A stretch of 24,349 nt of DNA from the IMG/VR virus record IMGVR_UViG_3300047121_000799, positions 1-24,349 of that record. One strand, written 5' to 3'. Every line of letters begins with the position of its first letter. The stretch's first letter is position 1. Of this stretch, positions 1-23,560 are shown one piece after another. The notes below the pieces were generated by a model that saw only the letters and a program-made list of their open reading frames with translations, had not been told where the DNA came from and searched no databases. Both the position numbers and the translations under genes were made by a program. Origin of the DNA: a virus.

Positions 1-1
1 T

Positions 2-1680
2 GAAATTTCAGGTAATACAGCGAATTTTAGCACAAGTGTTCAATCGCCATTAATTACGGTAACAGGTAATAGCAATGTTGGATTAATCACCAATGGCAAT
101 AGCAATATTGGAATTACTGCTAATGGTAATGTTACTATAAGTTCTACAGGTACTGCTAACGTATTGGTAGTTTCAAGTGGTGGTACAAATATTACAGGTA
201 ACTTAGATGTTACACAAGCATTGACAGGTAATACCGCCAATTTCAGTGGTAATGTTGTAACACCAAATCTAACAGTAAACCTTGAATTAAGTGGCAATAC
301 TGCTAATTTTAGTGGTAATGTACAAGTTGCCAACTTAGACGTAAATGCAGAAATTAGTGGAAATACAGCTAACTTTAGCGGTAATGTCATCGTACCTAAC
401 TTGACCGTTAATTTACAGTTAGCAGGTAACACAGCTAATTTCAGTGGTAATGTACAAGTTGATAATCTAGATGTAAATGCAGAAATTAGTGGAAATACAG
501 CTAATTTCTCAGGTAACGTAATAGTACCAAACCTTACAGTTAATCTAGAATTAGATGGAAATACAGCTAATTTCAGTGGTAATGTACAAGTTGCTAACTT
601 AGACGTTAATTCAGAAATTAGTGGAAATACAGCTAATTTCTCAGGTAACGTAATAGTACCAAACCTTACAGTTAATCTAGAATTAGATGGAAATACAGCT
701 AATTTTAATAGTGCAAATGTTACAGATTTAATAGTATCAAATACAGCAAACTTAGGCAATGTTGGCAATGTCATTATTACGGGTGGTAGTAATGGCTACT
801 TCTTAAAGACAAATGGTAGTGGTGCACTTGATTGGGCAGCAATAAGCACAAGTAGTATTAGCAATGGCAATAGTAATGTAGATATCCCTGCTGCTAATGG
901 AAATGTCAATATTTCTGCAGTAGGTAACGCAAACGTAGTAGTTGTTACAGGTACAGGTGCTAATGTTTCAGGCACTGCAAATATCACAAGTGATATTATT
1001 GGTGGTGGTAATTTAAATATCAGTGGCAATGCAGTCATTGGTGGAAACTTAACTGTTGATGGAAATCTTGTTTATGTTAATGTAACTGATTTAGCAGTAG
1101 AAGATCCAATTATTCAGTTACAAGTCGAACCAAACAATCAACCATTAACATCAAATACAGGTAAGGATGTTGGTACTGCGCTTAATTATTATGACACAAG
1201 TGCAAAAACTGCATTTATGGGTTGGGACGTAAGTAATGCGGAAATTGGTTTTGGTTCACAGGTATCGATATCAAGTGAAGTAGTAACATTCACTGAATAT
1301 GCAAACATTCGTGCAGGTAATTCAACGCTAGGTAATTTAGCATCAGCAAATTTCGTTCAAGTTTCAAGTAACTTAACTGTAAACTTAGAATTAGACGGTA
1401 ACACAGGTAACTTTAATAATTTAACAGTAGGGGACTTAGTTGCTTCTAATACTGCCAACTTAGGTAACGTTGGTAACGTCATCATTACAGGTGGCAGCAA
1501 TGGCTATTTCTTGCAGACAAATGGTAGTGGTGCACTTGATTGGGCAGCAATAAGCACAAGTAGTATTAGCAATGGCAATAGTAATGTAGATATCCCTGCT
1601 GCTAATGGAAATGTTAACATTTCTGCAGAAGGTAATGCAAATGTATTAGTTGTCACAGGGACAGGAATTAATGTAGCGGG
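2..1680 (+). repeat. Large internal duplication, copy 1
   Basis: Positions 2-292 match copy 2 at an offset of 3723. Positions 689 to about 1680 match at an offset of 3327. The difference, 396 bp, equals six 66-bp units present only in copy 1. Shared landmarks are the NYYDTSAK...FMGWDVSNAEIGFG segment and the IIGGGNLNISGNAVIGGNL segment. The copy probably extends left of the window. Confidence 0.85.
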
Positions 1681-4600
1681 AACATTACATACAACAGGTA
1701 ATGCAAACGTCGCAAACTTGTCAGTGGTAGGTGATATTGCCAATGCAGGTAATATTAGTATTACCAATAGTTTAAACGCTGTGCTTGGTACATTCAGCGG
1801 AAATGTTACTGCAAATGCTTTTGTAAGTACAAGCACAAGTGCACCATCTATTACAAGTAATGGTGCATTAACATTAACTGCAAATAGTAATATTAATTTA
1901 GGATCAGCAGGTAATGCAAATATATTAGTTGTAACAGGAACAGGCGTAAACGTTACAGGTACATTAAATGCAACGGGTAATGCTAATGTAGGAAATCTTG
2001 GTACAACAGGATTGGTTGTTGCAGGTGTAGCCAATCTCGGTGCAGTTGGTAACGTTATTATTACAGGTGGTTCAAATGGACAAGTTCTTTCAACTAACGG
2101 TAGTGGTAATTTAAGTTGGATATCAGTTAGTACTAGTAGCATTAGTAACGGTAATAGTAACGTAAATATACCTGCTGCTAATGGTAATGTTAATATTTCA
2201 GCAGTAGGTAATGCAAATGTAGTAGTTGTAACAGGTACGGGTATTAATGTTTCAGGTACATTAAATGCAACGGGTAATGCAAACGTTGGTAATTTGGGAA
2301 CAAGTGGGGAAATTATTGCAACGGGTAATATTACTGCTAGCTCATTTATTAGTACAAGTTCAAATTCACCATCAATTTCTAGTGCAAATAATTTATTAAT
2401 TACATCAAATACTGCAGTAAGCATTAGTAATATTAATGTTATATCAAATGGAACAAGTAATTTATCTATACCTGCGGCTAATGGAAATGTTACCATTTCT
2501 TCAGCAGGTAATACTGTATTAGTTATTACAGGAACAGGTGTAAACGTTACAGGTACTATTAATGCCACACAAGCACTAGATGGAAACACAGCAAACTTTA
2601 GTGGTAATGTTGTCGTACCAAACTTAACTGTAAATCTTGAATTAGATGGCAATACTGCTAACTTTAATAGCGCAACAATAGGTAACTTTGTTGTATCTAG
2701 TACTGCTAATTTAGGTAATGTTGGTAACGTTATCATTACAGGTGGTAGTAATGGGCAAGTACTTACCACTAATGGCAGTGGTAATTTAAGTTGGGCTAAT
2801 TTAACAGCTACGTCGATTGAAAATGGAACATCCAACGTAAGCATTCCTACAGCAAATGGCAATGTAGTTATTTCTGTTAACGCTAATTCTAATGTATTAA
2901 CTGTTACAGGAACAGGAATTAACGTATCAGGTACGATTAATGCCACACAATCACTAGATGGAAACACTGCTAATTTCAGTGGCAATGTCATTGTACCAAA
3001 CCTCACAGTTAATACTGAATTAAGTGGAAATACAGCTAATTTTAGTGGTAATGTGCAAGTTGCTAATTTAGACGTTAATTCAGAAATTAGTGGTAATACC
3101 GCTAACTTCAGTGGTAATGTTATTGTACCAAATCTTACTGTAAATCTTGAATTAGCAGGTAATACAGCGAATTTCAGTGGTAATGTAGTTGCACCAAATC
3201 TCACAGTTAATACTGAATTAAGTGGTAATACAGCTAATTTCAGTGGTAACGTACAGGTTAATAATTTAGACGTAAATGCAGAAATAAGCGGTAATACCGC
3301 TAATTTCAGTGGTAATGTTGTCGTACCTAACCTTACCGTAAACCTTGAATTAGATGGAAATACTGCTAACTTTAACAGTGCAAATGTCTCTGATTTAGTG
3401 GTAGCTAACACTGCAAATCTTGGTAACGTAGGTAATGTCACCATTACAGGTGGTAGTAATGGTTACTTCTTAAAGACAAATGGCAGTGGCGCACTTGATT
3501 GGGCAGCAATAAGTACTAGCAGTATCAGTAATGGCAATAGTAATGTAGATATCCCCACAGCAAATGGAAATGTCACTGTAAGTGTGGCAGGTAACGCAAA
3601 TGTATTAGTTGTAACAGGTACGGGTATTAATGTATCAGGTACTATCAATGCTACGCAATCAATAGATGGAAATACAGCTAACTTCAGTGGTAATGTTGTA
3701 GTTCCTAATTTAACAGTTAATAACGAAATTTCAGGTAATACAGCGAATTTTAGCACAAGTGTTCAATCACCATTAATTACGGTAACAGGTAATAGCAACG
3801 TTGGATTAATCACCAATGGTAATAGCAACATTGGGATTACAGCCAATGGAAATATTGCTATAAGTTCTACAGGTACTGCTAACGTATTGGTAGTTTCAAG
3901 TGGTGGTACAAATATTACAGGTAACTTAGATGTTACACAAGAATTGACAGGTAATACAGCTAATTTCAGTGGCAATGTTATAGTACCAAACCTAACAATT
4001 AATCTTGAATTAGATGGAAATACAGCTAATTTTAACAGTGCAAATGTTACAGATTTAATCGTTGCAAATACTGCAAACCTTGGTAATGTAGCTAACGTCA
4101 TTATTACAGGTGGTAGTAATGGTCAAGTCCTTTCAACTAATGGTAGTGGTAACTTAAGTTGGGTATCAATTAGTACAAGTAGCATTAGTAATGGCAATAG
4201 TAATGTTGCAATACCTGTAGCGAATAGTAATGTTGAAATATCTGTAGCAGGTAATGCAAATGTAGTGGTTGTCACAGGTACAGGTGCTAATGTTTCAGGC
4301 ACTGCAAATATCACAAGTGATATTATTGGTGGTGGTAATTTAAACATCAGCGGTAATGCTGTAATTGGTGGTAACTTAACTGTTGATGGTAATTTAGTTT
4401 ATGTCAATGTCACTGACTTGGCAGTACAAGATCCAATTATTCAGTTACAAGTAGAACCAAATGGCGCACCATTAACTTCAAACACAGGTAAAGATGTTGG
4501 TACTGCACTTAACTATTATGATACTAGTGCAAAAGTTGCATTCATGGGTTGGGATGTAAGTAATGCGGAAATTGGTTTTGGTTCACAAGTATCGATTTCA

Positions 4601-7600
4601 AGCGAAGTAGTAACATTTACTGAACATGCAAACATTCGTGCAGGTAATGCGGTACTAGGTAATTTAGCATCAGCAAATTTTGTTAATGTTTCAAGTAATT
4701 TAACCGTTAATTTAGAACTAGATGGTAATACAGGTAACTTTAATAGTTTAACAATAGGTGATTTAGTTGCTTCTAATACAGCCAACTTGGGTAATGTTGG
4801 TAACGTCATTATTACGGGTGGTAGTAATGGACAAGTATTAAGTACCAATGGAAGTGGTAACTTAAGTTGGGTATCAATCAGTTCAAGTAGTATTAGTAAT
4901 GGCAATAGTAATGTAGACATTCCCGCAGCGAACGGAAATGTTACTGTCAGCGTGGCAGGTAATGCGAATATATTAACGGTAACAGGTACAGGTATTAATG
5001 TATCAGGTACCATCAATGCTACACAGTCATTAGATGGTAACACTGCTAACTTTAGTGGTAATGTAGTTGTTCCAAATCTTACTGTAAATCTTGAATTAAG
5101 TGGTAACACTGCTAACTTCAGTGGTAATGTACAAGTTGCTAATTTAGATGTTAATAGTGAACTAAGTGGTAACACTGCTAACTTTAGTGGTAACGTCATT
5201 GTACCAAATCTATCAGTCAACCTTGAACTTGCAGGTAATACAGCTAACTTTAGTGGTAATGTACAAGTTGCTAACTTAGATGTTAATTCAGAAATCAGTG
5301 GTAATACAGCTAACTTCAGTGGTAATGTTATAGTTCCTAATTTAACTGTAAATCTTGAGTTAGATGGAAATACAGCTAATTTTAATAATGCTACAATTTC
5401 TGATTTAAGTGTATCAAATACAGCTAATTTAGGTAATGTAGGTAATGTTACCATTACAGGTGGTAGTAATGGTTATTTCTTGCAAACAGATGGTAGTGGG
5501 AATCTTGATTGGGCACAATTAAGTTCAAGTAGCATTAGTAATGGCAATAGTAATGTATCAATACCTGTAGCAAATAGTAATGTTGAAATATCTGTAGCAG
5601 GTAACGCAAATGTAGTGGTTGTCACAGGCACAGGTGCTAATATTACAGGTACATTGAATGTATCAGGCAACGCAAATGTTGGCAATCTAGGTGTAGCAGA
5701 AGTTTTAGCTACAGCAAATGTAACTGCACCACAATTAATATCAAATATAAGCACAGGTACTGCACCATTAGTTGTAACATCAACAACCGTGGTTGCTAAC
5801 TTAAACGCAAATGCACTACAAGGAAATACGCCAAGCGATACAGCAACAGCAAACAGTATTGCACAAAGAAACGCAGATGGTAATATTACTGCTAATTTCT
5901 TTATAGGTAATGGCAGTCAATTAACAGGTATTACTGCAACAAGTATATCAAATGGTAATAGTAATATAAACATTCCTGCTGCCAATGGCAATGTTAATAT
6001 TTCTGCAGTAGGTAATGCCAATGTACTAGTTATCACAGGAACAGGAATTAATGTTGCAGGTACTATTAACGCCACACAAGCACTAGATGGAAACACTGCT
6101 AACTTTAGTGGTAATGTCGTTGTACCTAATTTAACTGTAAATCTTGAGTTAGCAGGTAACACAGCAAACTTTAGTGGTAATGTACAAGTTGCTAATTTAG
6201 ACGTAAATGCAGAAATAAGTGGTAACACAGCTAACTTCAGTGGTAACGTAATAACACCTAATTTAACTGTAAATCTTGAATTAGATGGCAATACAGCTAA
6301 CTTTAATAGCGCAACGATTGCAGATTTAATAGCATCTAATACTGCTAATTTAGGTAACGTTGGTAATGTCATTATTACAGGTGGCAGTAACGGTCAAGTA
6401 CTTACAACCAATGGTAATGGTAACTTAAGTTGGGCTAATTTAGCAGCTACATCAATTGAAAATGGAACATCAAATGTAAGTATTCCTACAGCAAACGGTA
6501 ATGTAGTTATTTCTGTCGATGGTAACGCAAATGTTGTAACATTTACATCAACTGCATTGGTTACAGGAAATGGATCAGGCGGTAATATTACAGGTGTTGA
6601 TGTATTGTCAGCAAGCACTGCTAATATTTCAGGTAACGTTATTGCTAATAATATTAATGTTAATGCTAATCTTACCACAGCCAATTTTTCAGCAACAACA
6701 GCCAATTTGGGTAACGTTGGTAATTTAACGATTTTAGGTGGTACTGCAAATTATGTATTGTCAACTGATGGTTCAGGTAATCTATTTTGGCAGTTTATAA
6801 GTGGATCAGGATCACCATCAAACTTAGTTAATGGTAACAGTAATATTGATATTCCTGCAGCCAATGGTAATGCAACAATTAGTGTGGCAGGTAATGCAAA
6901 CGTATTAGTTGTAACAGGTACAGGTATTAATGTTGCAGGAACGATTAATGCAACACAGGCGTTAGATGGCAATACAGCTAACTTTAGTGGTAATGTTGTC
7001 GTACCAAACTTAACCGTAAATCTAGATCTAGCAGGGAATACAGCTAATTTCAGTGGGGATGTTGAGTTTGATGCAAACATCTTAGTAAATTTAGAATTGA
7101 CAGGAAATACAGCTAGCTTTAATAATGCTAACATTGTAGATATTATAGTTTCTAATACAGCAAACTTAGGTAATGTTGGTAACGTTACAATTACAGGTGG
7201 TAGTAATGGTCAAGTTTTAAGTACTGATGGTAACGGTGTATTAAGTTGGTCTACTCCATCAAGTGGATCAAGTTCAAATATCGCTAATGGTAACAGTAAT
7301 GTAAGCATCAGTACTGCAGGTGGCAACATTGATTTTTCAGTAAACGGTACAGCAAATGTATTCCAAGTAGCAGCAGGTGGTAACTTAGTTGGTAACTTTA
7401 TTAAAGTTTATTCTAACGGACAAACTATTTTAGGTAATGCAGCAACATCTAATATTGCAAATGGTATTGCAATTGGACATACTGCTAATTCATTTGGAAC
7501 TTATGGTATTGCAATTGGTCAATCATCGAAAGCAGGGCCTGGTGGGGTAAGTTTAGGTCGTTCTGCGTTTTCAAACGCAAATAGTATTGCTATTGGAAAT

Positions 7601-10600
7601 GCTGCTTTAGGTGGATTCGGTGCAGGAGCTAATGTTGTAGAATCAATCGCAATTGGTTCAGAAGCATTATTATTTGGCGGTGCTACTTTAATTACAGGTG
7701 CTGTATTTGTTGGAACACGTGCAGGTTCTATTGTACAAGCGGGTGGCACAGGAGCAGTTGCAGTAGGGTGGGAAGCAGGTGGGTCTAATAGTTCTTACGT
7801 TTTTACAGGTTCAGGTAATAGATTTATTGCAATTGGTAATGTTGCAGGTTATAAACCACCTAATGATGATTCTATCGTAATTGGTTCAAATGCAGGTTGG
7901 AACGCAGGTAGAAATACAAATGGTATTACGCTTGACACAAATGCCGCTAATATTATAGCAATTGGAACTTTAGCAGGACAAAGTGCAAATGGTAATTATA
8001 ACATTGCAATTGGTGCAAACGCAGGATTTACAGGTAATAGTAATTCTATAGCGATTGGTGCAAGTACAGGTTCTAATGCAGCAGCTAATTCAATTTCAAT
8101 CGGTGTTAATGCAGGTGCAAGCAATGTTGGTGCTAATGCCATATTAATTGGTGCAAATGCAGGTGTAGGTAATGCAACTGCAGCTAATGTTATTGTTTTA
8201 AATGCAACAGGTGCGAATTTAGAAGCAACCACTGCGAACACATTTACAGTAAAACCCGTACGTCAAGCTAATACAGCAAACGTCATGTACTATAACAGTA
8301 CAACAGGCGAAATATCATATGATGTATTATCAGGTGGATCATCAATTGCTAATGGAAACAGTAACGTTTCAATTCCTGCTGCAAATGGTAATGTCAATAT
8401 TTCTGCAGTAGGTAATGCAAACGTAGTAGTTGTAACAGGTACAGGCGCAAATATTACAGGTAGTTTAGGTGTAAGTTTAGATATAGTTGGTAATACAGCT
8501 AACTTTAGTGGTAATGTCATTGTACCAAACTTAACAGTTAATCTAGGGTTAAGTGGAAATACTGCTAACTTTAGCGGTAACGTTATCGTACCTAATTTAA
8601 CAGTAAATCTTGAATTAGACGGAAATACAGCTAACTTTAATAGTGCAACCATTGTAGATTTTGTAGCTTCAAATACTGCAAACCTAGGGGCAGTGGCAAA
8701 TGTCATTATTACAGGTGGTAGTAATGGACAGGTTCTTTCTACTAACGGAAGTGGTAACTTAAGTTGGGTATCAATTAGTTCAAGTAGCATAGCTAATGGC
8801 AATAGTAATGTAGACATCCCTGCTGCTAACGGTAATGTCAATATTTCATCAGCAGGTAATGCAAATATACTAGTTGTTACAGGTACAGGAGTTAATGTAT
8901 CAGGAACGTTTAACAGTACCGCTAATGCTACTGCTGCAAATTTTGTCACAGTAGGTGGATTATACTCACCTTATCATTATGACGCTCAAACAGGTGTGTC
9001 ACATTTATTTGTTGGTAATACATTAATTAATCTTGTTGTAAATACTGTAAATCAAGCTACCTTTACAGCATATGGTTTATCACTTGGAAATACAGGTAAT
9101 ACTTCTCCATCACCTAACGTTCTTCAAATTGGAACTAACGCCCAAGCAGTTTATGCTAACAATATAGCTATTGGTCAAGGTGCTAGAGGCAATGGATCAT
9201 CAGGTAATTCAATCGCTATTGGGCATACTACTTTAGCGGGTTCAAGAGGAATCGCTATAGGATCAAATTCAAGAACAGGTGATGGCAATTTTGATTCAAT
9301 AGTGATAGGTGCTAATGCAGGAGCAAGTGATACAGCAAATAATACGATTATACTTAATGCAAGTACTTCCGCATTAAACGCAACCACTGCGAACACATTT
9401 ACAGTAAAACCCGTACGTCAAGCCAACACTGCAAATGTCATGTACTATAACAGTACAACAGGCGAAATATCATATGATGTATTATCAGGTGGTGCGCTTA
9501 TATCAAATGGTAACAGTAACGTTAATATATCTGCAGCAAATGGCAATATTAGCATGTCTGTTGCAGGTAACACAAATGTAGTAGTTGTTACAGGTACAGG
9601 GGTTAACGTAGCGGGTACATTGAATGCAACAGGTAATGCAAACGTAGGAAATCTAGGTACAGGTGGCTTAATTGCTGCAACAGGTAATGTAAGTGGTGGC
9701 AATTTTACTACTGTAGGAGTTGTTGAAGCTACAGGTAATATTATAACATCTGCAAATATTGTTACAGACTTTATTTTAGGTAAAACAAATAGTGTAACAA
9801 TTGCTGCAGCAGGTACTAACCAAGATATTGAATTAAAACCAAGTGGTACAGGTGTAGTTGATGTATGGGGCGCAAAAATATCTAATCTTGCTACTCCTGT
9901 TGCAAGTACAGATGCTGCTACAAAAGATTATGTTGATCAAGTTGCACAGGGATTACATACACACGCAGCTGTTGCAGCAGCAACACCTGACACATTGGCG
10001 AATGTTACTAGTGGTACGATCACTTACAATAACGGTACTTCAGGAGTTGGTGCAACATTAACAACAACAGGTAGCTATACAACTATTGACGGTGTAAACA
10101 TTGCAAGTTCAGGTACAAGAATTCTTGTTAAGAACGAAGCCAATGCTGCACATAATGGTATCTATACTTACACAAGTTCAACAGTTATTACACGTGCTAC
10201 TGATTTTGATACACCAACTGAAATGGCAGGTGGTGACTTTACATTTGTTCAAAACGGTACATTATACAATGACACAGGATGGGTGATGGCTGATCCTGTT
10301 ACTACAGTTGGAACGACTGCAGTAAATTGGATACAGTTTAGTGGTGCAGGTACATACACAGCAGGTACAGGTTTAACATTAAACGGTACACAGTTTAGTA
10401 TTAGTAACACAACAGTCACTGCTAATAGTTATGGTAATGGTGATGTTGTTGCAACATTTACTGTTAACAGTCAAGGTCAAATAACTTCCGCAGCTAATAC
10501 TGCTATTACAGCAAATGCAGCTAATTTAACAGGAACAACACTAGCATCAAGTATCGTAACATCAAGTTTAACAACAGTTGGTACATTAGGGTCATTATCA

Positions 10601-11920
10601 GTAACAGGTAATATCACATCAGGTAATGCTAATTTAGGTAATTTAGTAACTGCTAATTTCTTTACAGGTACATTAACCACTGCAGCACAACCTAATATTA
10701 CAAGTGTTGGAACATTAAGTACATTAACAGTCAATGCAGTAACATATGCAAACACTGATGGTACAAACGGTCAAGTTCTTACAACATATGGTAATGGCAT
10801 TACTTATTGGTCAACTGTTACAGGCGGCGGTGGTGGGGGCGCATCTATTAGTAATGGTACGTCAAACGTTAACATCGCAACCGTAGATGGTAATGTAACA
10901 GTTGGAGTTGCAGGTAATGCAAATATATTAACTATCACAGGAACAGGTGTTAATGTAAGTGGTACATCAAATACAACGGGTAATTTAAGTGCAGGAAATA
11001 TTTCTACAGGTGGTGTACTAAGCGTTACAGGAAATGCTAATGTTGGTAATTTAGGTACAGCAGGATCAATTATTGGTCGCACACTTGAAAGTAATGTTGC
11101 ACAAGGTACTGCTCCAATTATTGTAGCTTCAACCACAAAAGTAACTAATTTAAATGCAGACTTATTAGATGGTTATGATACTGCTACTGCAGCAACAGCA
11201 AATACAGTAGTAGTACGTGATGCAAATGCAGATATAACTGCAGCAAACATTATTGGTACACAGGGTAGATTTAGTGCTAATGTTACAAGTCCTGTATTGA
11301 TTTCTAATGTATCTACAGGTACTGCTCCATTAACTGTAACAAGCACAACACGTGTTGCTAACTTAAATGTTTCACATGCAAATGTTGCAGATCTTATTAG
11401 TATTAGTGATGTTAATACAGGTACTTATTATCCTATTTTAGCTAATGCTGCAACAGGTAATGTATCTGAAGGATCAAACGCAAATCTTTCGTTTAATGCT
11501 GCAACAGGAGCATTGAGCACAACATCGTTAACTACAACGGGTAAAGTTACTATGGGTACTGTTCAGTATGCAAATACTGATGGTACAAATGGTCAAGTTT
11601 TAACAACGTATGGTAATGGTATTACTTATTGGGCAACAGCAGCAGGTGGTGGTGGAGCAAGTATTTCCAATGGTACATCAAACATAAATATAGCTACATC
11701 GGATGGAAATATTACTGCGGGTGTTGGTGGTACAGCTAATGTATTAATTTTAACAACAACAGGTGCAAATATTACAGGTACATTTAATGCTACAGGTAAT
11801 GCAAATGTTGGAAATATTGGTGCAGCAGCAGGGGTGTTTACAGGAAATGTAACATCAAATGGACAACAACTAACAACCACAGGTAAAGCAATTGCGATGG
11901 CTATAGTTTTCGGAGGATAA
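2..11920 (+). CDS. Giant repetitive tail-fibre-like protein, 5' partial
   Basis: The frame is open to the left edge of the window (first full codon GAA at 2), so the gene starts outside and the TTG at 164 is not a real start. At least 3,972 residues are visible, very rich in Asn, Gly, Thr, Ser and Val, and I see no cysteine. From left to right there are arrays of a 22-residue unit (core GNTANFSGNV), GQVLxTNGSGxLxW modules, YadA-head-like xIAIG repeats (about 7440-8210 and 9150-9360), a TDAATKDYVD segment followed by an ILVKNEANAAHNGIYTY domain (about 9880-10385), TAAQPNITSVGTL-type modules, and the end GKAIAMAIVFGG. These modules are known from fibres of marine T4-like phages and from trimeric adhesins. 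The likely role is a trimeric, beta-rich distal fibre contacting the host. There is no Peptidase_S74 chaperone at the C-terminus. The position in the virion is inferred. Confidence 0.85.
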   Translation, partial: EISGNTANFSTSVQSPLITVTGNSNVGLITNGNSNIGITANGNVTISSTGTANVLVVSSGGTNITGNLDVTQALTGNTANFSGNVVTPNLTVNLELSGNTANFSGNVQVANLDVNAEISGNTANFSGNVIVPNLTVNLQLAGNTANFSGNVQVDNLDVNAEISGNTANFSGNVIVPNLTVNLELDGNTANFSGNVQVANLDVNSEISGNTANFSGNVIVPNLTVNLELDGNTANFNSANVTDLIVSNTANLGNVGNVIITGGSNGYFLKTNGSGALDWAAISTSSISNGNSNVDIPAANGNVNISAVGNANVVVVTGTGANVSGTANITSDIIGGGNLNISGNAVIGGNLTVDGNLVYVNVTDLAVEDPIIQLQVEPNNQPLTSNTGKDVGTALNYYDTSAKTAFMGWDVSNAEIGFGSQVSISSEVVTFTEYANIRAGNSTLGNLASANFVQVSSNLTVNLELDGNTGNFNNLTVGDLVASNTANLGNVGNVIITGGSNGYFLQTNGSGALDWAAISTSSISNGNSNVDIPAANGNVNISAEGNANVLVVTGTGINVAGTLHTTGNANVANLSVVGDIANAGNISITNSLNAVLGTFSGNVTANAFVSTSTSAPSITSNGALTLTANSNINLGSAGNANILVVTGTGVNVTGTLNATGNANVGNLGTTGLVVAGVANLGAVGNVIITGGSNGQVLSTNGSGNLSWISVSTSSISNGNSNVNIPAANGNVNISAVGNANVVVVTGTGINVSGTLNATGNANVGNLGTSGEIIATGNITASSFISTSSNSPSISSANNLLITSNTAVSISNINVISNGTSNLSIPAANGNVTISSAGNTVLVITGTGVNVTGTINATQALDGNTANFSGNVVVPNLTVNLELDGNTANFNSATIGNFVVSSTANLGNVGNVIITGGSNGQVLTTNGSGNLSWANLTATSIENGTSNVSIPTANGNVVISVNANSNVLTVTGTGINVSGTINATQSLDGNTANFSGNVIVPNLTVNTELSGNTANFSGNVQVANLDVNSEISGNTANFSGNVIVPNLTVNLELAGNTANFSGNVVAPNLTVNTELSGNTANFSGNVQVNNLDVNAEISGNTANFSGNVVVPNLTVNLELDGNTANFNSANVSDLVVANTANLGNVGNVTITGGSNGYFLKTNGSGALDWAAISTSSISNGNSNVDIPTANGNVTVSVAGNANVLVVTGTGINVSGTINATQSIDGNTANFSGNVVVPNLTVNNEISGNTANFSTSVQSPLITVTGNSNVGLITNGNSNIGITANGNIAISSTGTANVLVVSSGGTNITGNLDVTQELTGNTANFSGNVIVPNLTINLELDGNTANFNSANVTDLIVANTANLGNVANVIITGGSNGQVLSTNGSGNLSWVSISTSSISNGNSNVAIPVANSNVEISVAGNANVVVVTGTGANVSGTANITSDIIGGGNLNISGNAVIGGNLTVDGNLVYVNVTDLAVQDPIIQLQVEPNGAPLTSNTGKDVGTALNYYDTSAKVAFMGWDVSNAEIGFGSQVSISSEVVTFTEHANIRAGNAVLGNLASANFVNVSSNLTVNLELDGNTGNFNSLTIGDLVASNTANLGNVGNVIITGGSNGQVLSTNGSGNLSWVSISSSSISNGNSNVDIPAANGNVTVSVAGNANILTVTGTGINVSGTINATQSLDGNTANFSGNVVVPNLTVNLELSGNTANFSGNVQVANLDVNSELSGNTANFSGNVIVPNLSVNLELAGNTANFSGNVQVANLDVNSEISGNTANFSGNVIVPNLTVNLELDGNTANFNNATISDLSVSNTANLGNVGNVTITGGSNGYFLQTDGSGNLDWAQLSSSSISNGNSNVSIPVANSNVEISVAGNANVVVVTGTGANITGTLNVSGNANVGNLGVAEVLATANVTAPQLISNISTGTAPLVVTSTTVVANLNANALQGNTPSDTATANSIAQRNADGNITANFFIGNGSQLTGITATSISNGNSNINIPAANGNVNISAVGNANVLVITGTGINVAGTINATQALDGNTANFSGNVVVPNLTVNLELAGNTANFSGNVQVANLDVNAEISGNTANFSGNVITPNLTVNLELDGNTANFNSATIADLIASNTANLGNVGNVIITGGSNGQVLTTNGNGNLSWANLAATSIENGTSNVSIPTANGNVVISVDGNANVVTFTSTALVTGNGSGGNITGVDVLSASTANISGNVIANNINVNANLTTANFSATTANLGNVGNLTILGGTANYVLSTDGSGNLFWQFISGSGSPSNLVNGNSNIDIPAANGNATISVAGNANVLVVTGTGINVAGTINATQALDGNTANFSGNVVVPNLTVNLDLAGNTANFSGDVEFDANILVNLELTGNTASFNNANIVDIIVSNTANLGNVGNVTITGGSNGQVLSTDGNGVLSWSTPSSGSSSNIANGNSNVSISTAGGNIDFSVNGTANVFQVAAGGNLVGNFIKVYSNGQTILGNAATSNIANGIAIGHTANSFGTYGIAIGQSSKAGPGGVSLGRSAFSNANSIAIGNAALGGFGAGANVVESIAIGSEALLFGGATLITGAVFVGTRAGSIVQAGGTGAVAVGWEAGGSNSSYVFTGSGNRFIAIGNVAGYKPPNDDSIVIGSNAGWNAGRNTNGITLDTNAANIIAIGTLAGQSANGNYNIAIGANAGFTGNSNSIAIGASTGSNAAANSISIGVNAGASNVGANAILIGANAGVGNATAANVIVLNATGANLEATTANTFTVKPVRQANTANVMYYNSTTGEISYDVLSGGSSIANGNSNVSIPAANGNVNISAVGNANVVVVTGTGANITGSLGVSLDIVGNTANFSGNVIVPNLTVNLGLSGNTANFSGNVIVPNLTVNLELDGNTANFNSATIVDFVASNTANLGAVANVIITGGSNGQVLSTNGSGNLSWVSISSSSIANGNSNVDIPAANGNVNISSAGNANILVVTGTGVNVSGTFNSTANATAANFVTVGGLYSPYHYDAQTGVSHLFVGNTLINLVVNTVNQATFTAYGLSLGNTGNTSPSPNVLQIGTNAQAVYANNIAIGQGARGNGSSGNSIAIGHTTLAGSRGIAIGSNSRTGDGNFDSIVIGANAGASDTANNTIILNASTSALNATTANTFTVKPVRQANTANVMYYNSTTGEISYDVLSGGALISNGNSNVNISAANGNISMSVAGNTNVVVVTGTGVNVAGTLNATGNANVGNLGTGGLIAATGNVSGGNFTTVGVVEATGNIITSANIVTDFILGKTNSVTIAAAGTNQDIELKPSGTGVVDVWGAKISNLATPVASTDAATKDYVDQVAQGLHTHAAVAAATPDTLANVTSGTITYNNGTSGVGATLTTTGSYTTIDGVNIASSGTRILVKNEANAAHNGIYTYTSSTVITRATDFDTPTEMAGGDFTFVQNGTLYNDTGWVMADPVTTVGTTAVNWIQFSGAGTYTAGTGLTLNGTQFSISNTTVTANSYGNGDVVATFTVNSQGQITSAANTAITANAANLTGTTLASSIVTSSLTTVGTLGSLSVTGNITSGNANLGNLVTANFFTGTLTTAAQPNITSVGTLSTLTVNAVTYANTDGTNGQVLTTYGNGITYWSTVTGGGGGGASISNGTSNVNIATVDGNVTVGVAGNANILTITGTGVNVSGTSNTTGNLSAGNISTGGVLSVTGNANVGNLGTAGSIIGRTLESNVAQGTAPIIVASTTKVTNLNADLLDGYDTATAATANTVVVRDANADITAANIIGTQGRFSANVTSPVLISNVSTGTAPLTVTSTTRVANLNVSHANVADLISISDVNTGTYYPILANAATGNVSEGSNANLSFNAATGALSTTSLTTTGKVTMGTVQYANTDGTNGQVLTTYGNGITYWATAAGGGGASISNGTSNINIATSDGNITAGVGGTANVLILTTTGANITGTFNATGNANVGNIGAAAGVFTGNVTSNGQQLTTTGKAIAMAIVFGG
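227..688 (+). repeat. Array of seven 66-bp (22-aa) fibre repeats
   Basis: Seven consecutive in-frame units each begin GNTANFSGNV. They alternate between a type with PNLTVNLEL and a type with NLDVNAEIS or NLDVNSEIS, giving a 44-residue super-period. The array ends where the next unit changes to GNTANFNSAN at 689. The regular spacing suggests a repeating beta-structure in a trimeric shaft. Confidence 0.9.
2960..3355 (+). repeat. Array of six 66-bp (22-aa) fibre repeats
   Basis: Six in-frame copies of the GNTANFSGNV unit, ending at a GNTANFNSAN unit at 3356. The alternation of the two subtypes is imperfect: units three and four are both of the PNLTVN type, a sign of past unit-level gain or loss. 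Confidence 0.88.
3725..5007 (+). repeat. Large internal duplication, copy 2
   Basis: Second copy of the fibre module at 2-1680. It carries a single 22-residue unit (3950-4015) where copy 1 carries seven. Downstream the protein stays collinear with copy 1, without gaps, until about 5007, where the sequences diverge. Confidence 0.85.
5036..5365 (+). repeat. Array of five 66-bp (22-aa) fibre repeats
   Basis: Five in-frame GNTANFSGNV units with strict alternation of the PNL(T/S)VN and NLDVNS subtypes, followed by a terminal GNTANFNNAT unit at 5366. Confidence 0.88.
6089..6286 (+). repeat. Array of three 66-bp (22-aa) fibre repeats
   Basis: Three GNTANFSGNV units followed by GNTANFNSAT at 6287. 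Shorter versions with one or two units occur near 2580, 3668, 3950, 6968 and 8490. Confidence 0.85.
8226..8337 (+). repeat. 112-bp near-identical repeat, copy 1
   Basis: Encodes a TVKPVRQANTANVMYY...TTGEISYDVLSGG segment directly after the first YadA-head-like cassette. It differs from the copy at 9381-9492 at four bases by my reading, all synonymous. Confidence 0.9.
9381..9492 (+). repeat. 112-bp near-identical repeat, copy 2
   Basis: Second copy of the segment at 8226-8337, here after the shorter YadA-head-like cassette. Both copies close an IAIG-rich domain before the fibre returns to Asn/Gly-rich modules. Confidence 0.9.
11912..11916 (+). promoter_or_regulatory. Ribosome binding site overlapping the fibre gene end
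   Basis: GGAGG lies inside the last codons and stop of the giant fibre gene, six bases before the ATG at 11923. This indicates translational coupling of the small downstream gene to the fibre gene. Confidence 0.75.
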
Positions 11921-11922
11921 AA

Positions 11923-12279
11923 ATGGCAAACCCAAATATTGTTAATGTAACACAAATTTATGGAATTAGTAACGTAGCTGCACTTACATCAAGTACCGCA
12001 AATATTGTGACTAACCCATCAGGTAGTAATGAAGTATTAAAATTAAACTCAGTTTCTGTTGGAAATTATTCAGGTGCTAATATTACTTGTAATGTTATGA
12101 TTAATAGAAGCGGGACTGTTTATTATTTTGCGGGTAATGTTACTGTTCCATCTTATTCAACATTAATTGTTGTTGGTAAGGATAATGGTGTTTATCTTAA
12201 TGAAGGTGACGTTTTACAAGCAAATTGTAACGCAAGTCCTGCAGGAACAATTATTGCATCTTATGATGAAATTGGATAA
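11923..12279 (+). CDS. Small conserved marine-phage protein (MANPNIVNV family), probably structural
   Basis: This 118-residue protein starts MANPNIVNVTQIYGISN, a beginning I recognise from small proteins encoded beside fibre genes in marine T4-like phages; their function is not established. The sequence alternates hydrophobic and polar residues (for example VMINRSGTVYYFAG and STLIVVGKDNGVYL), which fits a small beta-sandwich, and it ends SYDEIG. It has two cysteines and no signal peptide or membrane segment. It starts two bases after the fibre stop with a strong GGAGG site, so it is made together with the fibre. A fibre-associated or virion-surface role is inferred from position only. Confidence 0.7.
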   Translation: MANPNIVNVTQIYGISNVAALTSSTANIVTNPSGSNEVLKLNSVSVGNYSGANITCNVMINRSGTVYYFAGNVTVPSYSTLIVVGKDNGVYLNEGDVLQANCNASPAGTIIASYDEIG

Positions 12280-12282
12280 ATA
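12275..12282 (+). promoter_or_regulatory. T4-like late promoter box (GATAAATA)
   Basis: GATAAATA overlaps the stop of the preceding gene and lies about 30 bases before the ATG at 12313. It resembles the T4 late consensus TATAAATA, and similar boxes precede other structural genes in this window. A chance A+T-rich match is possible. Confidence 0.4.
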
Positions 12283-12304
12283 ATTTTAGATTTTTTCTAA
12301 AATT
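12282..12304 (+). other. A+T-rich hairpin before the polyglycine gene
   Basis: AATTTTAG (12282-12289) and CTAAAATT (12297-12304) pair perfectly over eight bases around a seven-base loop. It contains few G-C pairs and is followed by only two T residues before the pattern breaks, so it is a weak terminator or a 5' leader hairpin rather than a clear stop. Confidence 0.4.
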
Positions 12305-12312
12305 TTATAGTT

Positions 12313-13308
12313 ATGAGATCACAAACTAATCGTGCAATAACGGGTAATGGGTTACCGACTACAAGTAACCTTGGCCCAGGTATTAACACCATTCAAGATA
12401 TGCAGCAGTCACAAACTGCTGTCGCCCCAGGCCCCTCAGGTCCTAATAAAACACCTTCGTTTGATTACTTAGTTGTTGGGGGTGGTGGCGCAGGTTCTCC
12501 AGGAGTTTCCACAGGACCAGGTACAGGTTACTTTTCTAGAGGTGGTGGTGGTGCAGGTGGATATAATAGTGGTAATGTTACAACTTATTTAGATGGTCTT
12601 ACATTAAATGTAACAGTTGGAGGTGGTGCACCTGCTTTTCCTGCTTCAGGTGTATCAAGTTCTATAACCTGCCCTGCTTTAGGTGGAAGTATCATTGGAT
12701 ATGGTGGTGGTTCAGGTAATAGTACAGGTAATAGACCAACAGGAACAGTAGCAGGTATACAGTCAACTAACGCAGGAAGCGGTGCGGGTGGTGACCCAAT
12801 GGCAGGTTGGGGTAGAGGACTCCCAGGTCAAGGCACCAATGGTGGCAGATCAGAAAATCAAGCATCTAACCAAGCAGGAGGTGGTGGTGGCGGTGCAGGT
12901 GGAGGAGGTGGCAACGCAACTTATCTTAGTTTAGGTGCATCAGCAGGTGGTGGTGGTGGCGGAGGAGCAACATGGCTTAATGGTATCACATATGGTGGCG
13001 GTGGTGGTGGTGGATCAAAAGGACCTACCGTAGGTAGATCAGGTGGTGGCGGTGGTGGTGGGGGCGCAGGTGGCGCACAAACTCCTGGAAATACTGCAGG
13101 AATAGCAGGATCTTCAAATACAGGTGGCGGTGGAGGGGGATCTGCAGCACCATCCGCTGGTGTAGGAGCAGGTGGTAGTGGCATTGTAATTATCCGTTGG
13201 CCCGACACATACGATGCAGCAAATGCTACAACAGGATCTCCTACTGTATCTACTTCAGGTGGGTATAGATATTATACATTTACAGGAAATGGAAGCTTAA
13301 CTTTTTAG
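12313..13308 (+). CDS. Polyglycine-rich adhesin-like protein, copy 1
   Basis: 331 residues. A short N-terminal region (about 1-50, ITGNGLPTTSN, then a Pro-containing linker) leads to a glycine-rich domain opening with YLVVGGGGAG. Long runs of glycine (about residues 190-275) follow, then the motif GSGIVIIRWPD and a C-terminal YRYYTFTGNGSLTF. Glycine-rich proteins with the GSGIVIIR and TFTGNGSLTF signatures are common beside tail-fibre genes in marine phages. T4-like gp38 adhesins also use packed polyglycine helices to carry receptor-binding loops. A fibre-tip adhesin role is therefore likely but inferred. The next gene is a paralogue. No strong ribosome binding site is visible; a late-promoter-like box lies upstream. 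Confidence 0.75.
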   Translation: MRSQTNRAITGNGLPTTSNLGPGINTIQDMQQSQTAVAPGPSGPNKTPSFDYLVVGGGGAGSPGVSTGPGTGYFSRGGGGAGGYNSGNVTTYLDGLTLNVTVGGGAPAFPASGVSSSITCPALGGSIIGYGGGSGNSTGNRPTGTVAGIQSTNAGSGAGGDPMAGWGRGLPGQGTNGGRSENQASNQAGGGGGGAGGGGGNATYLSLGASAGGGGGGGATWLNGITYGGGGGGGSKGPTVGRSGGGGGGGGAGGAQTPGNTAGIAGSSNTGGGGGGSAAPSAGVGAGGSGIVIIRWPDTYDAANATTGSPTVSTSGGYRYYTFTGNGSLTF

Positions 13309-13318
13309 GTTATAAAAT

Positions 13319-14503
13319 ATGAAAGAAAGACCAAATAAAAATATTATTGGAAATTCTTTTCCAATGACTTCAAATGTACAAGGAATTACATCGTTGCAGT
13401 CATGGCAACAATATAAAACCACACCTGCTTCACCAAGTCCATCACCCGCCCCAAGCCCAGGTCCCGCTCCAAATCCCGCCCCTGGCAAAACAAACAGCAT
13501 CACTTATCTTGCAGTTGCAGGTGGAGGGGCAGGGGGTCCTGGGGGGCCTAACTTACCTATTAACTCAGGTTATGGTGGTGGAGGTGGCGGAGGGTTTTTA
13601 TCAGGAACATTGTCACAAAATTTTCAAGCAGGTACTGTTTTTACAGTTACTGTAGGGGGTGGTGGCAGTGCAGGTGCTACGGGTGGACAAGGACAAGAAG
13701 GCACAAATGGTGGCGATTCTATTATAGAATGTCCCGTTATGTTGGCAAGTATTAGAGCGTATGGTGGAGCACCTTCAAGCTCGCAAGTTGCGAGTACTCC
13801 ACAGCAGCCTGGGGTGCAGACTAGAATGGGTGGAAGTGGGGGTGGCGGTGGAGGATGGTACTCCCAACAACGCCAATTCCAAGGTGGTCCTGCAGTAGAA
13901 GGTCAAGGTAACGCAGGTGGTAACAACGCTCCTACAGGAGGTATTAACCAAGGTGGCGCAGGAGGCGGGGGTGCAGGTGGTGCAGGTGGTAATGCAGCAG
14001 CATGGACTGCAGGCGGAGGTGGTTCAGGCGCACTATGGCCTGTTACAGGTGCGTATTATTCAGGCGGTGGCGGTGGCGGATCACGTGGAAACACACCCGC
14101 TCTTACTGCAAGATTAGGTGGTATGGCAGCAGGAGGTATTGGGGGTGGTGGTGCAGGTGGGTATGGACCAAATGGTACTTATGTCGCCCCAGGCCTGACT
14201 CCCGCAGTTAGAGCAAATTTCCCAAACAATGCCTTATGCGCAGGGCAAAATGGTGGTACAAATCAGGGTGGTGGAGGAGGTGGAGCAGGTAGAAATGGTT
14301 TTGGTTCACCCGCACCCGCACAATTTACAGGCGACACATACCCTGCTCGATCAGGTGGCGCAGGAGGTTCAGGCATTGTAATTGTGCAGTGGTCAACATC
14401 ATTCCCTGCAGCAGCATCTACAACAGGATCTCCTACGTATAACGGTGGTGCAGGTGGCGTTCATAGGTATACATTTACAGGAAATGGTTCATTTACATTA
14501 TAA
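13319..14503 (+). CDS. Polyglycine-rich adhesin-like protein, copy 2
   Basis: A 394-residue paralogue of the preceding gene. The N-termini align (IIGNSFPMTSN against ITGNGLPTTSN), as do the YLAVAGGGAGG opening, the GSGIVIVQW motif and the YTFTGNGSFTL end. This copy has a longer Pro/Ser/Ala linker (about residues 36-58, repeating PSP and PAP) and different, longer glycine-rich loops with charged and aromatic insertions such as GGWYSQQRQF. Conserved ends with a divergent middle fit alternative receptor-binding tips. It starts ten bases after its paralogue, so the two are co-transcribed. The role is inferred as for copy 1. Confidence 0.75.
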   Translation: MKERPNKNIIGNSFPMTSNVQGITSLQSWQQYKTTPASPSPSPAPSPGPAPNPAPGKTNSITYLAVAGGGAGGPGGPNLPINSGYGGGGGGGFLSGTLSQNFQAGTVFTVTVGGGGSAGATGGQGQEGTNGGDSIIECPVMLASIRAYGGAPSSSQVASTPQQPGVQTRMGGSGGGGGGWYSQQRQFQGGPAVEGQGNAGGNNAPTGGINQGGAGGGGAGGAGGNAAAWTAGGGGSGALWPVTGAYYSGGGGGGSRGNTPALTARLGGMAAGGIGGGGAGGYGPNGTYVAPGLTPAVRANFPNNALCAGQNGGTNQGGGGGGAGRNGFGSPAPAQFTGDTYPARSGGAGGSGIVIVQWSTSFPAAASTTGSPTYNGGAGGVHRYTFTGNGSFTL

Positions 14504-14519
14504 AGGAGATTAAAAATTT

Positions 14520-14981
14520 ATGGCTCATTTCGCAAAATTAGATGAAAATAATAAAGTTATAGAAGTTAACGTTGTAAACAATGCAGTTTTACTTGACGAA
14601 AATGGTATTGAGAAAGAAGAATTAGGTATTCAATTTTTAGTTGAATGGTCAGGTGGTCATACTAATTGGAAACAAACATCATACAATGGTTCTTTTAGAA
14701 CACGATACGCAGGTGTTGGATATACATATGATCCTGTTAGAGATGCATTTTTACGAGTAAAACCTCATCATTCATTTATTTTAGACGAGAATACCTTGGA
14801 TTGGATTCCTCCAATTCCAAGACCTATTTACGATCCTGAACAATATCATTATGATTATTATGATATTGATAAAGAAGAATGGGTTTTAGTACCTAATCCT
14901 CCACAACCTGATGATGAACAATACGCTAATTATTTTGACGAATTAAAAAGGGAATGGATAAGAATTCCACGAGATAGTTAG
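14520..14981 (+). CDS. Conserved marine-phage protein of the MAHFAK type, unknown function
   Basis: 153 residues starting MAHFAKLDENNKVIEVNVVNN, an opening I recognise from proteins encoded beside fibre genes in many marine phages. The middle carries TSYNGSFRTRYAGVGYTYD, also typical of that family. The C-terminal third is rich in Pro, Asp, Trp and Tyr with repeats of the kind WIPPIPRP, EEWVLVPNPPQPDD and REWIRIP. No enzymatic motif is visible. AAGGAG at 14503-14508 overlaps the previous stop and sits 11 bases before this ATG. A structural or fibre-accessory role is inferred from context. Confidence 0.7.
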   Translation: MAHFAKLDENNKVIEVNVVNNAVLLDENGIEKEELGIQFLVEWSGGHTNWKQTSYNGSFRTRYAGVGYTYDPVRDAFLRVKPHHSFILDENTLDWIPPIPRPIYDPEQYHYDYYDIDKEEWVLVPNPPQPDDEQYANYFDELKREWIRIPRDS

Positions 14982-15014
14982 TAATTTTTTTACTACACAT
15001 AATATCATGTAAAT

Positions 15015-15704
15015 ATGATTATTATGAAAAAAACCCCTAAACTTATGGATGAAGTAAAATATGTAAAAGGTGACATGAATGAAAATGCAATGATTCATGA
15101 TCCATATTTTAATGCACAAATGTCTGAAAATATCATCGATTACATACGAATATACTCAAATGTAATCGATGAAAAAAGTTGCAAAAAGTTTTGTAAAAAA
15201 CTAGATAAATCAAAGCTATGGACTACACATGCATATTACGATACAGTTAAGAAAGAAAACGTAGTATATGAAGATGAGTTAGAATGTATTTTTGATTATG
15301 GACTAGAACAAGAATTAGTCGATTTTAGTAAAGATTTAACAGATAAATTATGGCATGTTCTAAACTGCTATATAAACACCGATATTAAACTACCATGGTT
15401 TAATAGTTGGCAAGGTTATAGTCCTATTAGATATAATAGATATAATATTAAAAGTAAAATGAGATTACATTGTGATCATATTACGACTATTTTTGATGGT
15501 GAACGAAAAGGTATTCCAACTTTAACTATTTTGGGTAGTTTAAACAATGACTACGAAGGTGGTGAATTAGTATTAATGAATAATCGTATTTGTGAACTTA
15601 AAGCAGGATCTGTGGTAATTTTTCCAAGTATATTCTTATTTCCACATTTGGTTAGACCTGTAACTAAAGGAAGAAGATATTCTTTTGTTTCGTGGGTATG
15701 GTAA
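15015..15704 (+). CDS. 2-oxoglutarate/Fe(II) oxygenase, prolyl-4-hydroxylase-like
   Basis: 229 residues. The C-terminal half has the double-stranded beta-helix signature: an HxD pair at H152-C-D154 in RLHCDH, the segment YEGGELVL, then FPHLVRPVTKGRRYSFVSW with the distal metal ligand H211 and a 2-oxoglutarate-binding arginine (R220 or R221). All three metal ligands are present, so the enzyme is probably active. Family members hydroxylate protein side chains or small molecules using 2-oxoglutarate and O2. The substrate is unknown; tail-fibre or adhesin residues are candidates by position. Two starts are possible (15015 and 15024, both ATG), without a clear ribosome binding site. The stop overlaps the start of the next oxygenase gene. 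Confidence 0.8.
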   Translation: MIIMKKTPKLMDEVKYVKGDMNENAMIHDPYFNAQMSENIIDYIRIYSNVIDEKSCKKFCKKLDKSKLWTTHAYYDTVKKENVVYEDELECIFDYGLEQELVDFSKDLTDKLWHVLNCYINTDIKLPWFNSWQGYSPIRYNRYNIKSKMRLHCDHITTIFDGERKGIPTLTILGSLNNDYEGGELVLMNNRICELKAGSVVIFPSIFLFPHLVRPVTKGRRYSFVSWVW

Positions 15705-16309
15705 TGGATATTATACAATTATTTCCTAAATGTGTTGGTAAGTTTGAACTTGATCGTGAATTAACAAAAAAAGAAAAAAAAGTATTAATAAATGCTTCAC
15801 AACGACCAAATGAAGGTAATACTTCAAGCTTAGACAATTATATATTAGAAAACAAAGAATTAAAGAAGCTTAAATCTTTTATTCAAGAATCTATAGATCA
15901 ATATTTTATAACAACTTTTTGCCCTAAAAAAGATACAGTTTCTTTAAGAATAACTCAATCATGGACTAATAATTCTAAACACACACAATATCATCATAAA
16001 CATCAACATCCCAATTCGTTATTAAGCGGTGTGTTTTATATACAATCATCCGAAAACGACAAAATTACTTTTCATGATGAACCTTACGAACAACTTCGTA
16101 TACCTCCTGCAACATTTAATGTTTATAATAGTCCTTCTTGGTGGTTACCTGCAACACAAGGATTATTATATATATTCAAATCAAGCTTGACACACAGTGT
16201 TCCAAATGTTGTAGATAACCAAACACGAATTAGCTTAGCTTTTAATACATTTCCTGTTGGTAGTTTGGGCGATGATTATGAACTAACAGGGTTGAAGTTA
16301 AAGGGCTAA
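15704..16309 (+). CDS. Putative 2-oxoglutarate/Fe(II) oxygenase (2OG-FeII_Oxy_5 type)
   Basis: 201 residues from the ATG that overlaps the preceding stop (TAATG). An in-frame GTG at 15692 would add four residues but is less likely. The N-terminus LFPKCVGKF, the segment QSWTNN, the histidine cluster H97-H98-x-H100-x-H102-PNS followed by SGVFYI, and the distal THSVPNVVDNQTRISLAFN (H164, R175) match the second oxygenase family common in marine T4-like phages. The expected histidines and arginine are present, so activity is plausible; the substrate is unknown. The coupling to the preceding oxygenase suggests the two act in one process, perhaps modifying the fibre or adhesin proteins encoded upstream. 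Confidence 0.72.
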   Translation: MDIIQLFPKCVGKFELDRELTKKEKKVLINASQRPNEGNTSSLDNYILENKELKKLKSFIQESIDQYFITTFCPKKDTVSLRITQSWTNNSKHTQYHHKHQHPNSLLSGVFYIQSSENDKITFHDEPYEQLRIPPATFNVYNSPSWWLPATQGLLYIFKSSLTHSVPNVVDNQTRISLAFNTFPVGSLGDDYELTGLKLKG

Positions 16310-16327
16310 TATTAATTTTGCTATTAA

Positions 16328-16335
16328 GATAAATA
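16328..16335 (+). promoter_or_regulatory. T4-like late promoter box (GATAAATA)
   Basis: GATAAATA in a 97-base intergenic region, 71 bases before the ATG at 16407. It resembles the T4 late promoter element and is followed by a structured leader, so the downstream gene probably has its own late transcript. Confidence 0.55.
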
Positions 16336-16354
16336 CTATTGTTCCGTGTGAACT

Positions 16355-16392
16355 CATAACTACATGGGGTAGTTATGGCTCCTAGAACGAGC
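16355..16392 (+). other. Two-hairpin 5' leader of the putative virion protein
   Basis: CATAACTAC (16355-16363) pairs with GTAGTTATG (16369-16377) around the loop ATGGG. GCTC (16378-16381) and GAGC (16389-16392) can form a second, weak stem. The ribosome binding site AAAGGAA (16394-16400) follows immediately. The leader could stabilise the mRNA, position the ribosome or bind a regulator; which of these cannot be seen from sequence. Confidence 0.55.
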
Positions 16393-16406
16393 TAAAGGAA
16401 ATTATA

Positions 16407-16928
16407 ATGGCAAAGCTAAAAATTCAAAAAACAGGTAATATTGATGTTGGTATTCCTGCTCAAACAGAGGTAGGAAATATTGGTGTCGTTGGTGGTGCTA
16501 ATGGCTTAGGTGCAGTCAGTGGTGGTAATACAATTCTTTGTGTTGCTAACATCGAATACTCAACAGGCAATTATGCAGCAGGTGATGCATACATTGTACG
16601 TCAAAAAGGTAAATCAAAGTTCTTAGTTGCAAACACTGCAGATCCTACACAAACACAAATTTGTATTCTTGTTAATGAAGCAGACGCAAACGTTGCTAAT
16701 TTAACATCAGGACAAATGGCAATCCAAGGTATTGATGCTTCAGCAGCAAATGTTGCAATCTTTAGTATTATTAACTCACATGCTGAAGGTTTTGCACCTG
16801 ACTATGTAGACAGTAACAATATTGGTAACATGGCAAATGCAACCGCATATCACGTTTCTTTTGTTGCAGCAAATGCAACACCACAAACAGGTTCTAACTT
16901 GACAATTATTCAAATTCCAAGTCAGTAA
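16407..16928 (+). CDS. Putative virion structural protein
   Basis: 173 residues, rich in Ala, Asn, Gly and Val, with little charge beyond the first ten residues. The segment YIVRQKGKSKFLVAN...QICILVNEADANV resembles a virion structural family found in marine T4-like phages, in which a VKQKGSRRF-like motif is followed by a TEICTLV-like strand. I am recalling this resemblance, not searching for it. No enzymatic motif, signal peptide or membrane segment is seen. A dedicated late-promoter box, a structured leader, a good ribosome binding site and a strong terminator suggest a separately transcribed, abundant product such as a capsid decoration or tail protein. Confidence 0.6.
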   Translation: MAKLKIQKTGNIDVGIPAQTEVGNIGVVGGANGLGAVSGGNTILCVANIEYSTGNYAAGDAYIVRQKGKSKFLVANTADPTQTQICILVNEADANVANLTSGQMAIQGIDASAANVAIFSIINSHAEGFAPDYVDSNNIGNMANATAYHVSFVAANATPQTGSNLTIIQIPSQ

Positions 16929-16944
16929 AAAGATATGCTTTAAT

Positions 16945-16975
16945 AAAACCCACAGCAATGTGGGTTTTTTATTTT
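16945..16975 (+). terminator. Strong Rho-independent terminator, probably bidirectional
   Basis: AAAACCCACA (16945-16954) pairs perfectly with TGTGGGTTTT (16959-16968) around a GCAA tetraloop, followed by TTATTTT. On the other strand the same stem is followed by TATTAAAG, less ideal but usable. It lies between two convergent genes, 17 bases after the plus-strand stop and adjacent to the minus-strand stop. Confidence 0.9.
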
Positions 16976-17409
16976 ATAGCATCATGAATTAATGCTATCT
17001 TTTGTTGAATTATATCGTAATTCAATGTATTAAACAAACCACGATGTAATGGTTTTGGATATAATTGACTATCGCACCAACAATATCCTAAATGTTCATG
17101 ATTTAACGTTGGAATAAATTCAGATTGTACAAATGAATAAAAAGTATGATACACAAATCGTTTATCATCACTTGTAAATTGTTCAATGGGAAATAATTTT
17201 ACTTCACTCGGCCAATAACCAATTTCTTCAATACACTCACGCTCTAACGCAGTACGTAAATTTTCACCACGCTCCACCTTCCCCCCAGGCAATCCCCAAG
17301 TGTTTATTTTCTTATCATTACGTAATAAAAATAAGTGACGATTTGTATTTAAAGCGCAAAATAATATACCAACACTGTTGTTTAACTTGTTTAAATGACG
17401 ATGTTCCAT
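16969..17409 (-). CDS. Nudix hydrolase
   Basis: 146 residues. A complete Nudix box spans residues 43-65 (GKVERGENLRTALE then RECIEEIGY), fitting G-x5-E-x7-RE-U-x-EE-x-G-U with all catalytic glutamates present. It is preceded by the usual strand and loop (FLLRNDKKINTWGLPGG). Nudix enzymes hydrolyse nucleoside diphosphates linked to another group, such as damaged nucleotides, NADH, ADP-ribose or capped RNA; the substrate cannot be told here. The gene begins 19 bases inside the end of the gp15-like gene and shares its transcript, so it is probably expressed late. The stop codon falls within the T-rich flank of the terminator. Confidence 0.88.
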   Translation of the reverse strand: MEHRHLNKLNNSVGILFCALNTNRHLFLLRNDKKINTWGLPGGKVERGENLRTALERECIEEIGYWPSEVKLFPIEQFTSDDKRFVYHTFYSFVQSEFIPTLNHEHLGYCWCDSQLYPKPLHRGLFNTLNYDIIQQKIALIHDAIK

Positions 17410-19013: not shown

Positions 19014-19024
19014 TTTATTATCCT

Positions 19025-20911: not shown

Positions 20912-20919
20912 GATTTATA

Positions 20920-23547: not shown

Positions 23548-23560
23548 TATTCTAAATTAC

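Follow-up and report, generated by a model that had tools for sequence, protein, structure and literature searches.

Unequal repeat arrays in two copies of a cassette within a putative giant phage fibre gene

How did two copies of one cassette, within a single phage gene, come to carry seven tandem repeat units in one case and one in the other? The gene lies in the linear IMG/VR contig IMGVR_UViG_3300047121_000799, a metagenome-derived sequence of 24,349 bp, referred to here as the window. Positions 2–11920 form a single open frame of 3972 codons, truncated at its 5' end and made of “ISNGNSNV...” modules, several of which contain tandem 22-residue units (“GNTANFSGNV..PNLTVNLEL”). The complete gene is found in contig G003, where it runs from about 11324 to 23992–23995 and has about 4223 codons, some 20 modules and a putative GTG start. 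G003 reaches 12 kb upstream of the window, and three more repeat-fibre genes precede the giant gene there (2074–6786, 6821–7795 and 7807–11274 in G003). Later genes in the window match tail sheath stabiliser, head-tail adaptor and jumbo-phage structural proteins, and the neighbouring structural genes are closest to those of jumbo phages such as Atu_ph07 and PA5oct. The window is probably best explained as holding most of a giant modular virion-fibre gene from an uncultured jumbo-type myovirus.

Other parts of the window also contain adjoining or duplicated sequences. Two adjoining glycine-rich proteins at 12313–14503 both match phrog_2295 and resemble a tandem gene duplication, and two adjoining 2OG-Fe(II) oxygenase genes at 15015–16309 overlap slightly. 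Among relatives of the structural gene at 19025–20911, one strain (L125, compared with L115–L118) has a tandem 36-bp in-frame duplication (EFSNILSQPLEK). Near the far end of the window, G003 is 99.96% identical up to 22277 and has many mismatches from there to its own end (~22660), which points either to recombination between strains or to a chimeric end of the contig.

In the duplicated cassette (11876–13639 and 15599–16966 in G003), a block module precedes a domain module. Its parts in the window are as follows.

2–11920, plus strand: giant modular fibre/structural gene, 3' part, running off the window start and complete in G003
2–226, plus strand: 225-bp block (GNTANFSTSVQ...NLDVTQALT), copy 1, 98.7% identical to the block in the upstream gene (G003 8608–8832)
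689–856, plus strand: closing block of module 1 (GNTANFNSANV...GALDWAAISTSS)
857–1564, plus strand: copy 1 of the DPIIQLQVEPN...FMGWDVSNAEIGFG domain, within the second module
3524–4183, plus strand: second block module, a duplicate carrying a single unit
3725–3949, plus strand: 225-bp block, copy 2, 95.1% identical to copy 1
4184–4891, plus strand: DPIIQ-domain module, copy 2, 84–85% identical to copy 1

The initial annotation described two module copies that match at an offset of 3723 before the repeat array and 3327 after it, and both offsets were confirmed. At an offset of 3723, identity in 66-bp windows is 88–98% from position 1 to about 264 and then collapses; at 3327, it is 67–94% from about 661 to 1584 and then fades. 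The match is far beyond chance, with 291 bp matching at 92% identity and 942 bp at 84%. The limits proposed for the copies, 2–1680 and 3725–5007, can be refined. The left limit is only the contig edge; in G003, the matching stretch begins at a module boundary (11876) that lies about 200 bp upstream of the window's first position. The specific match ends near 1564/4891, and similarity in the tail at 1565–1680 is near the background for any two “ISNGNSNV” modules. Two further sets of exact repeats occur in the gene. An exact 100-bp repeat (807–906 = 1515–1614) spans the boundary between modules 1 and 2, which are otherwise more divergent, and probably reflects recent conversion. Exact 44- and 56-bp repeats at 8225–8337 and 9380–9492 lie in the TANTFTVKPVRQANTANVMYYNSTTGEISYDVLSGG segment, which comes after each of two “NSIAIG” repeat regions.

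Could the difference in unit number be an assembly artefact? A short-read assembler might collapse or expand an array, and the window was assembled from metagenome data and includes exact 94- and 100-bp repeats. These are the longest exact repeats in the giant gene, so none exceeds 100 bp, and only one pair of array units (those starting at 491 and 623) is identical in DNA sequence. Moreover, contigs from separate metagenomes agree with the window without gaps. G001 and G003 are 99.96–99.97% identical to window 1–14891 and cover all of the arrays; G002 is 99.93% identical over 1774–14891, and covers only the arrays from 1774 on. This gap-free agreement indicates that the array was neither collapsed nor expanded. 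An artefact is already largely refuted and is very unlikely.

The arrays are built from two types of unit, A and B.

227–688, plus strand: array 1, seven 22-residue (66-bp) units, A B A B A B A, with unit starts at 227, 293, 359, 425, 491, 557 and 623
425–688, plus strand: two BA pairs 132 bp apart (425–556 and 557–688), 93.9% identical
2960–3355, plus strand: six units, A B A A B A
3950–4015, plus strand: the single A-type unit of copy 2
5036–5365, plus strand: five units, A B A B A
6089–6286, plus strand: three units, A B A
8489–8620, plus strand: two A units

The counts of seven units at 227–688 and one at 3950–4015 stand when read in frame. The arithmetic behind a difference of exactly six units is also correct (3723 − 3327 = 396 = 6 × 66), but it carries little evidential weight because every array has exact 66-bp spacing, such that a whole-unit difference is expected. 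The order of the units is more informative. Along the giant gene, the unit orders are ABABABA, A, ABAABA, A, A, ABABA, ABA and AA; every array starts and finishes with A, and B never adjoins B. None of 100,000 permutations reproduced the A(BA)n pattern, in a post hoc test that used A/B classes assigned by eye. Within the two BA pairs of array 1, there is an exact 94-bp repeat (480–573 = 612–705), and duplication of the pair at 425–688 is the youngest step in this array. A near-identical pair 132 bp apart (98.5%) is also present in the upstream gene. The step by which unit number changes is possibly two units, or 132 bp. A more elaborate version proposes that fibre length changes in 44-residue (132-bp, two-turn) steps, with unlike half-units A and B forming one structural repeat, A(BA)n as the grammar, and arrays adjusting the reach of fibres in a population as natural variable-number repeats. 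We regard that version as doubtful. The array in a related phage, L017, is a run of one unit type, and therefore A/B alternation is not obligatory. Another phage, L174, follows the same grammar, with a nine-unit ABABABABA array in a fibre gene of a different kind (residues 212–409 of the frame that starts at 5728). Repeat lengths in the related fibres of L013, L020, L085 and L234 are often multiples of 11 residues (22, 33, 44, 77 and 99), which suggests an 11-residue sub-repeat.

The initial annotation attributed the two copies to a large segmental duplication within one gene. Duplication is upheld, but a single within-gene event is not. The 225-bp block is present at least three times in the genome, in two genes, with one copy in the adjacent upstream gene, where the order is the 225-bp block, one unit, an array of A-type units and then a DPIIQ-type domain. 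For the block, copy 1 is 98.7% identical to the upstream gene and 95.1% identical to copy 2, and copy 2 is 96.4% identical to the upstream gene. For the domain module, the corresponding values are 80%, 85% and 83%. The block of copy 1 is therefore nearest the upstream gene and its domain nearest copy 2, meaning that the segments have different histories and the cassette is a mosaic. One within-gene duplication is insufficient to produce these identities; gene conversion or repeated ectopic exchange is sufficient. Long exact runs within the divergent copies, attained by shuffled sequences with P values of 0.0009 and 0.009, point the same way. A simple two-copy duplication in one gene is ruled out by the third block in the neighbouring gene together with the mosaic identities. 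Apart from the cassette, four of the few SNPs that separate the window from G001, G002 and G003 fall within 16 bp (9523–9538), in a pattern like a small gene-conversion tract; a search for a donor of this patch gave no exact donor.

What process could have produced the seven-versus-one difference? We think it likely that recombination between mispaired repeats changes the number of units and modules in this virion-fibre gene, with the difference between the two copies being one outcome. The 22-residue units would be turns of a repeating beta structure in a shaft segment. Recombination between mispaired repeats would cause in-frame tandem duplications and deletions, continually altering unit and module numbers, and gene conversion would act among modules and also between adjacent paralogous fibre genes. 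The cassette of block plus domain would have been copied by duplication, and the seven-versus-one difference would have arisen after or during that duplication, most likely by gain in copy 1 and at least partly in 132-bp (two-unit) steps. Gain or loss of units should alter shaft length while leaving the fold and the reading frame intact. Gain in copy 1 is favoured over loss in copy 2 because two of the three block copies carry a single unit.

Two other routes to the difference have some evidence behind them. A ready-made seven-unit array may have been imported by ectopic gene conversion, with another array of this fibre gene or of a neighbouring one as the donor (for example the six-unit array at 2960–3355). 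For most units, the closest match lies in another array (the unit at 557 is 95.5% identical to that at 3026, and the unit at 425 is 89% identical to that at 6155), and the block before the array is common to another gene at 98.7%. However, no other array matches all of array 1, with the six-unit array in register reaching 74%, and the pair 425–556/557–688 is a local duplication. Wholesale import is tentative and on balance unlikely. Exchange between arrays is a broader matter. Only 8 of the 35 units have their nearest neighbour in their own array, a mild excess over shuffled sets (mean of 3.4, maximum of 13), and therefore inter-array exchange matters as much as growth in place. Alternatively, the ancestral cassette may have had many units, with copy 2 losing six of them in one deletion between the first and last unit. 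Consistent with this, the first half of the unit in copy 2 is similar to unit 1 (0.88) and the second half to unit 7 (0.91), and the best breakpoint falls inside the unit at 3950–4015. That internal breakpoint beats a breakpoint at the unit edge by four matches only, and a single unit is likewise present in the third copy (upstream gene), so a one-unit start is more parsimonious. Hence, loss in copy 2 seems improbable to us, and gain in copy 1 by recombination between repeats is retained as the preferred reading.

Near-identical phages that differ by whole in-frame fibre repeats occur among the relatives, rather than for the array at 227–688. No strain variant of that array was found; all near-identical contigs spanning it have seven units in copy 1 and one in copy 2. 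Among the relatives, L017 differs from L016 and L018 by exactly two identical 66-bp units, with 99.96% identity over 10.8 kb and 99.3–99.5% identity after the array. The exact repeat in L017 is 217 bp, so its count of four units may be wrong, although the difference from L016 and L018 is hard to explain without extra units. The sister phages L013 and L098 are 98% identical in this gene and differ by one 297-bp and one 231-bp module; exact repeats at these offsets in L013 are 56–74 and 85 bp. The L013 orthologue has about 1500 codons and is without 22-residue arrays. Other near-identical pairs have in-frame tandem differences in fibre genes of 111 bp (L019/L021), 99 bp (L234/L235) and 93 bp (L042/L068), and a difference of 189 bp between L039 and L040 is less clean. 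Unit counts in all of these relatives come from metagenome assemblies that are presumably short-read. Since near-identical strains differ by whole in-frame units, recombination between repeats is the natural reading, and the relatives lend good support to the view that fibre repeats change in this way. Thus, the proposal that recombination between repeats remodels fibre genes is well supported by whole-unit differences in relatives, and its extension to fibre length is something we infer.

Is the encoded protein a fibre, and would unit number set its length? AlphaFold2 models of the array have a pLDDT of about 76–86 and an identical two-strand pattern every 22 residues, so each unit plausibly forms a single regular step in a beta shaft. 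If so, more units would mean a longer shaft, and unit number would set fibre length. A Foldseek search with the array model gave no significant match (none below E 0.05), with beta-helix proteins as the best PDB hits, and sequence searches of the PDB gave only chance-like hits. The whole 3972-aa protein matches no PHROG or Pfam family; scores for YadA head repeats of the trimeric autotransporter-like type (PF05658, 16.3 bits in 7280–8344, cut-off 25) and for a bactofilin-like beta-solenoid (PF04519, 23.2 bits, cut-off 27.9) fall below threshold. The domain module at 857–1564 matches phrog_697 (E 3.2e-16), and its structural model is poor (pTM 0.36). The DPIIQ domain has 231 matching records, all but one from cyanophages and all under 60% identity. 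In cyanophages these relatives carry the labels “structural” or “tail fiber”; PHROG files the domain's relative under “head and packaging”. Given the PHROG label and the lack of a Foldseek match, the protein may be a tail fibre or another virion fibre. We infer that it is an adsorption fibre, and unit number may affect host attachment and infection. Among cultured phages, there was no DNA match to 2–5007 and no protein match to the array.

What does this locus add to what is known of phage fibres? The principle is already established. In the Xanthomonas oryzae phages OP1, Xp10 and Xop411, tail-fibre domains have been duplicated or lost, giving arrangements such as 1-2-3, 1-2-2-2-3 and 1-2-3-3-3; short repeats in and around the domains have been proposed as mediators, and OP1 host-range mutants carry tail-fibre domain changes (PMC2248197). 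For T4 gp37, duplications of a small domain are described as affecting the adhesin of the long tail fibre and expanding host range (Tetart et al. 1996, J Mol Biol 258:726, as cited in PMC2248197). The distinguishing points here are the clean 66-bp unit, the possible two-unit (132-bp) step and the exchange between neighbouring fibre genes. The locus and its relatives add environmental evidence, at the level of strains, for whole-unit changes in giant phage fibre genes, and fibre-length evolution becomes measurable in metagenome time series. As in OP1, Xp10 and Xop411, near relatives differ by duplicated or lost fibre repeats. Unlike in those phages, whose changes tie to host range, the giant fibre gene is known from sequence alone, the unit and the phage are unrelated to theirs as far as tested, and shuffling also crosses neighbouring genes. 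As in T4 gp37, a small repeated domain of a fibre has been duplicated, although shaft-like repeats of a giant fibre gene are involved here rather than an adhesin of the kind described in that citation. Finally, the DPIIQ domain of the cassette is common to the structural and tail-fibre proteins of cyanomyoviruses (phrog_697). Unlike those proteins, the giant gene has 22-residue arrays of a kind not found in cultured phages, and it sits beside structural genes that are nearest to those of jumbo phages.
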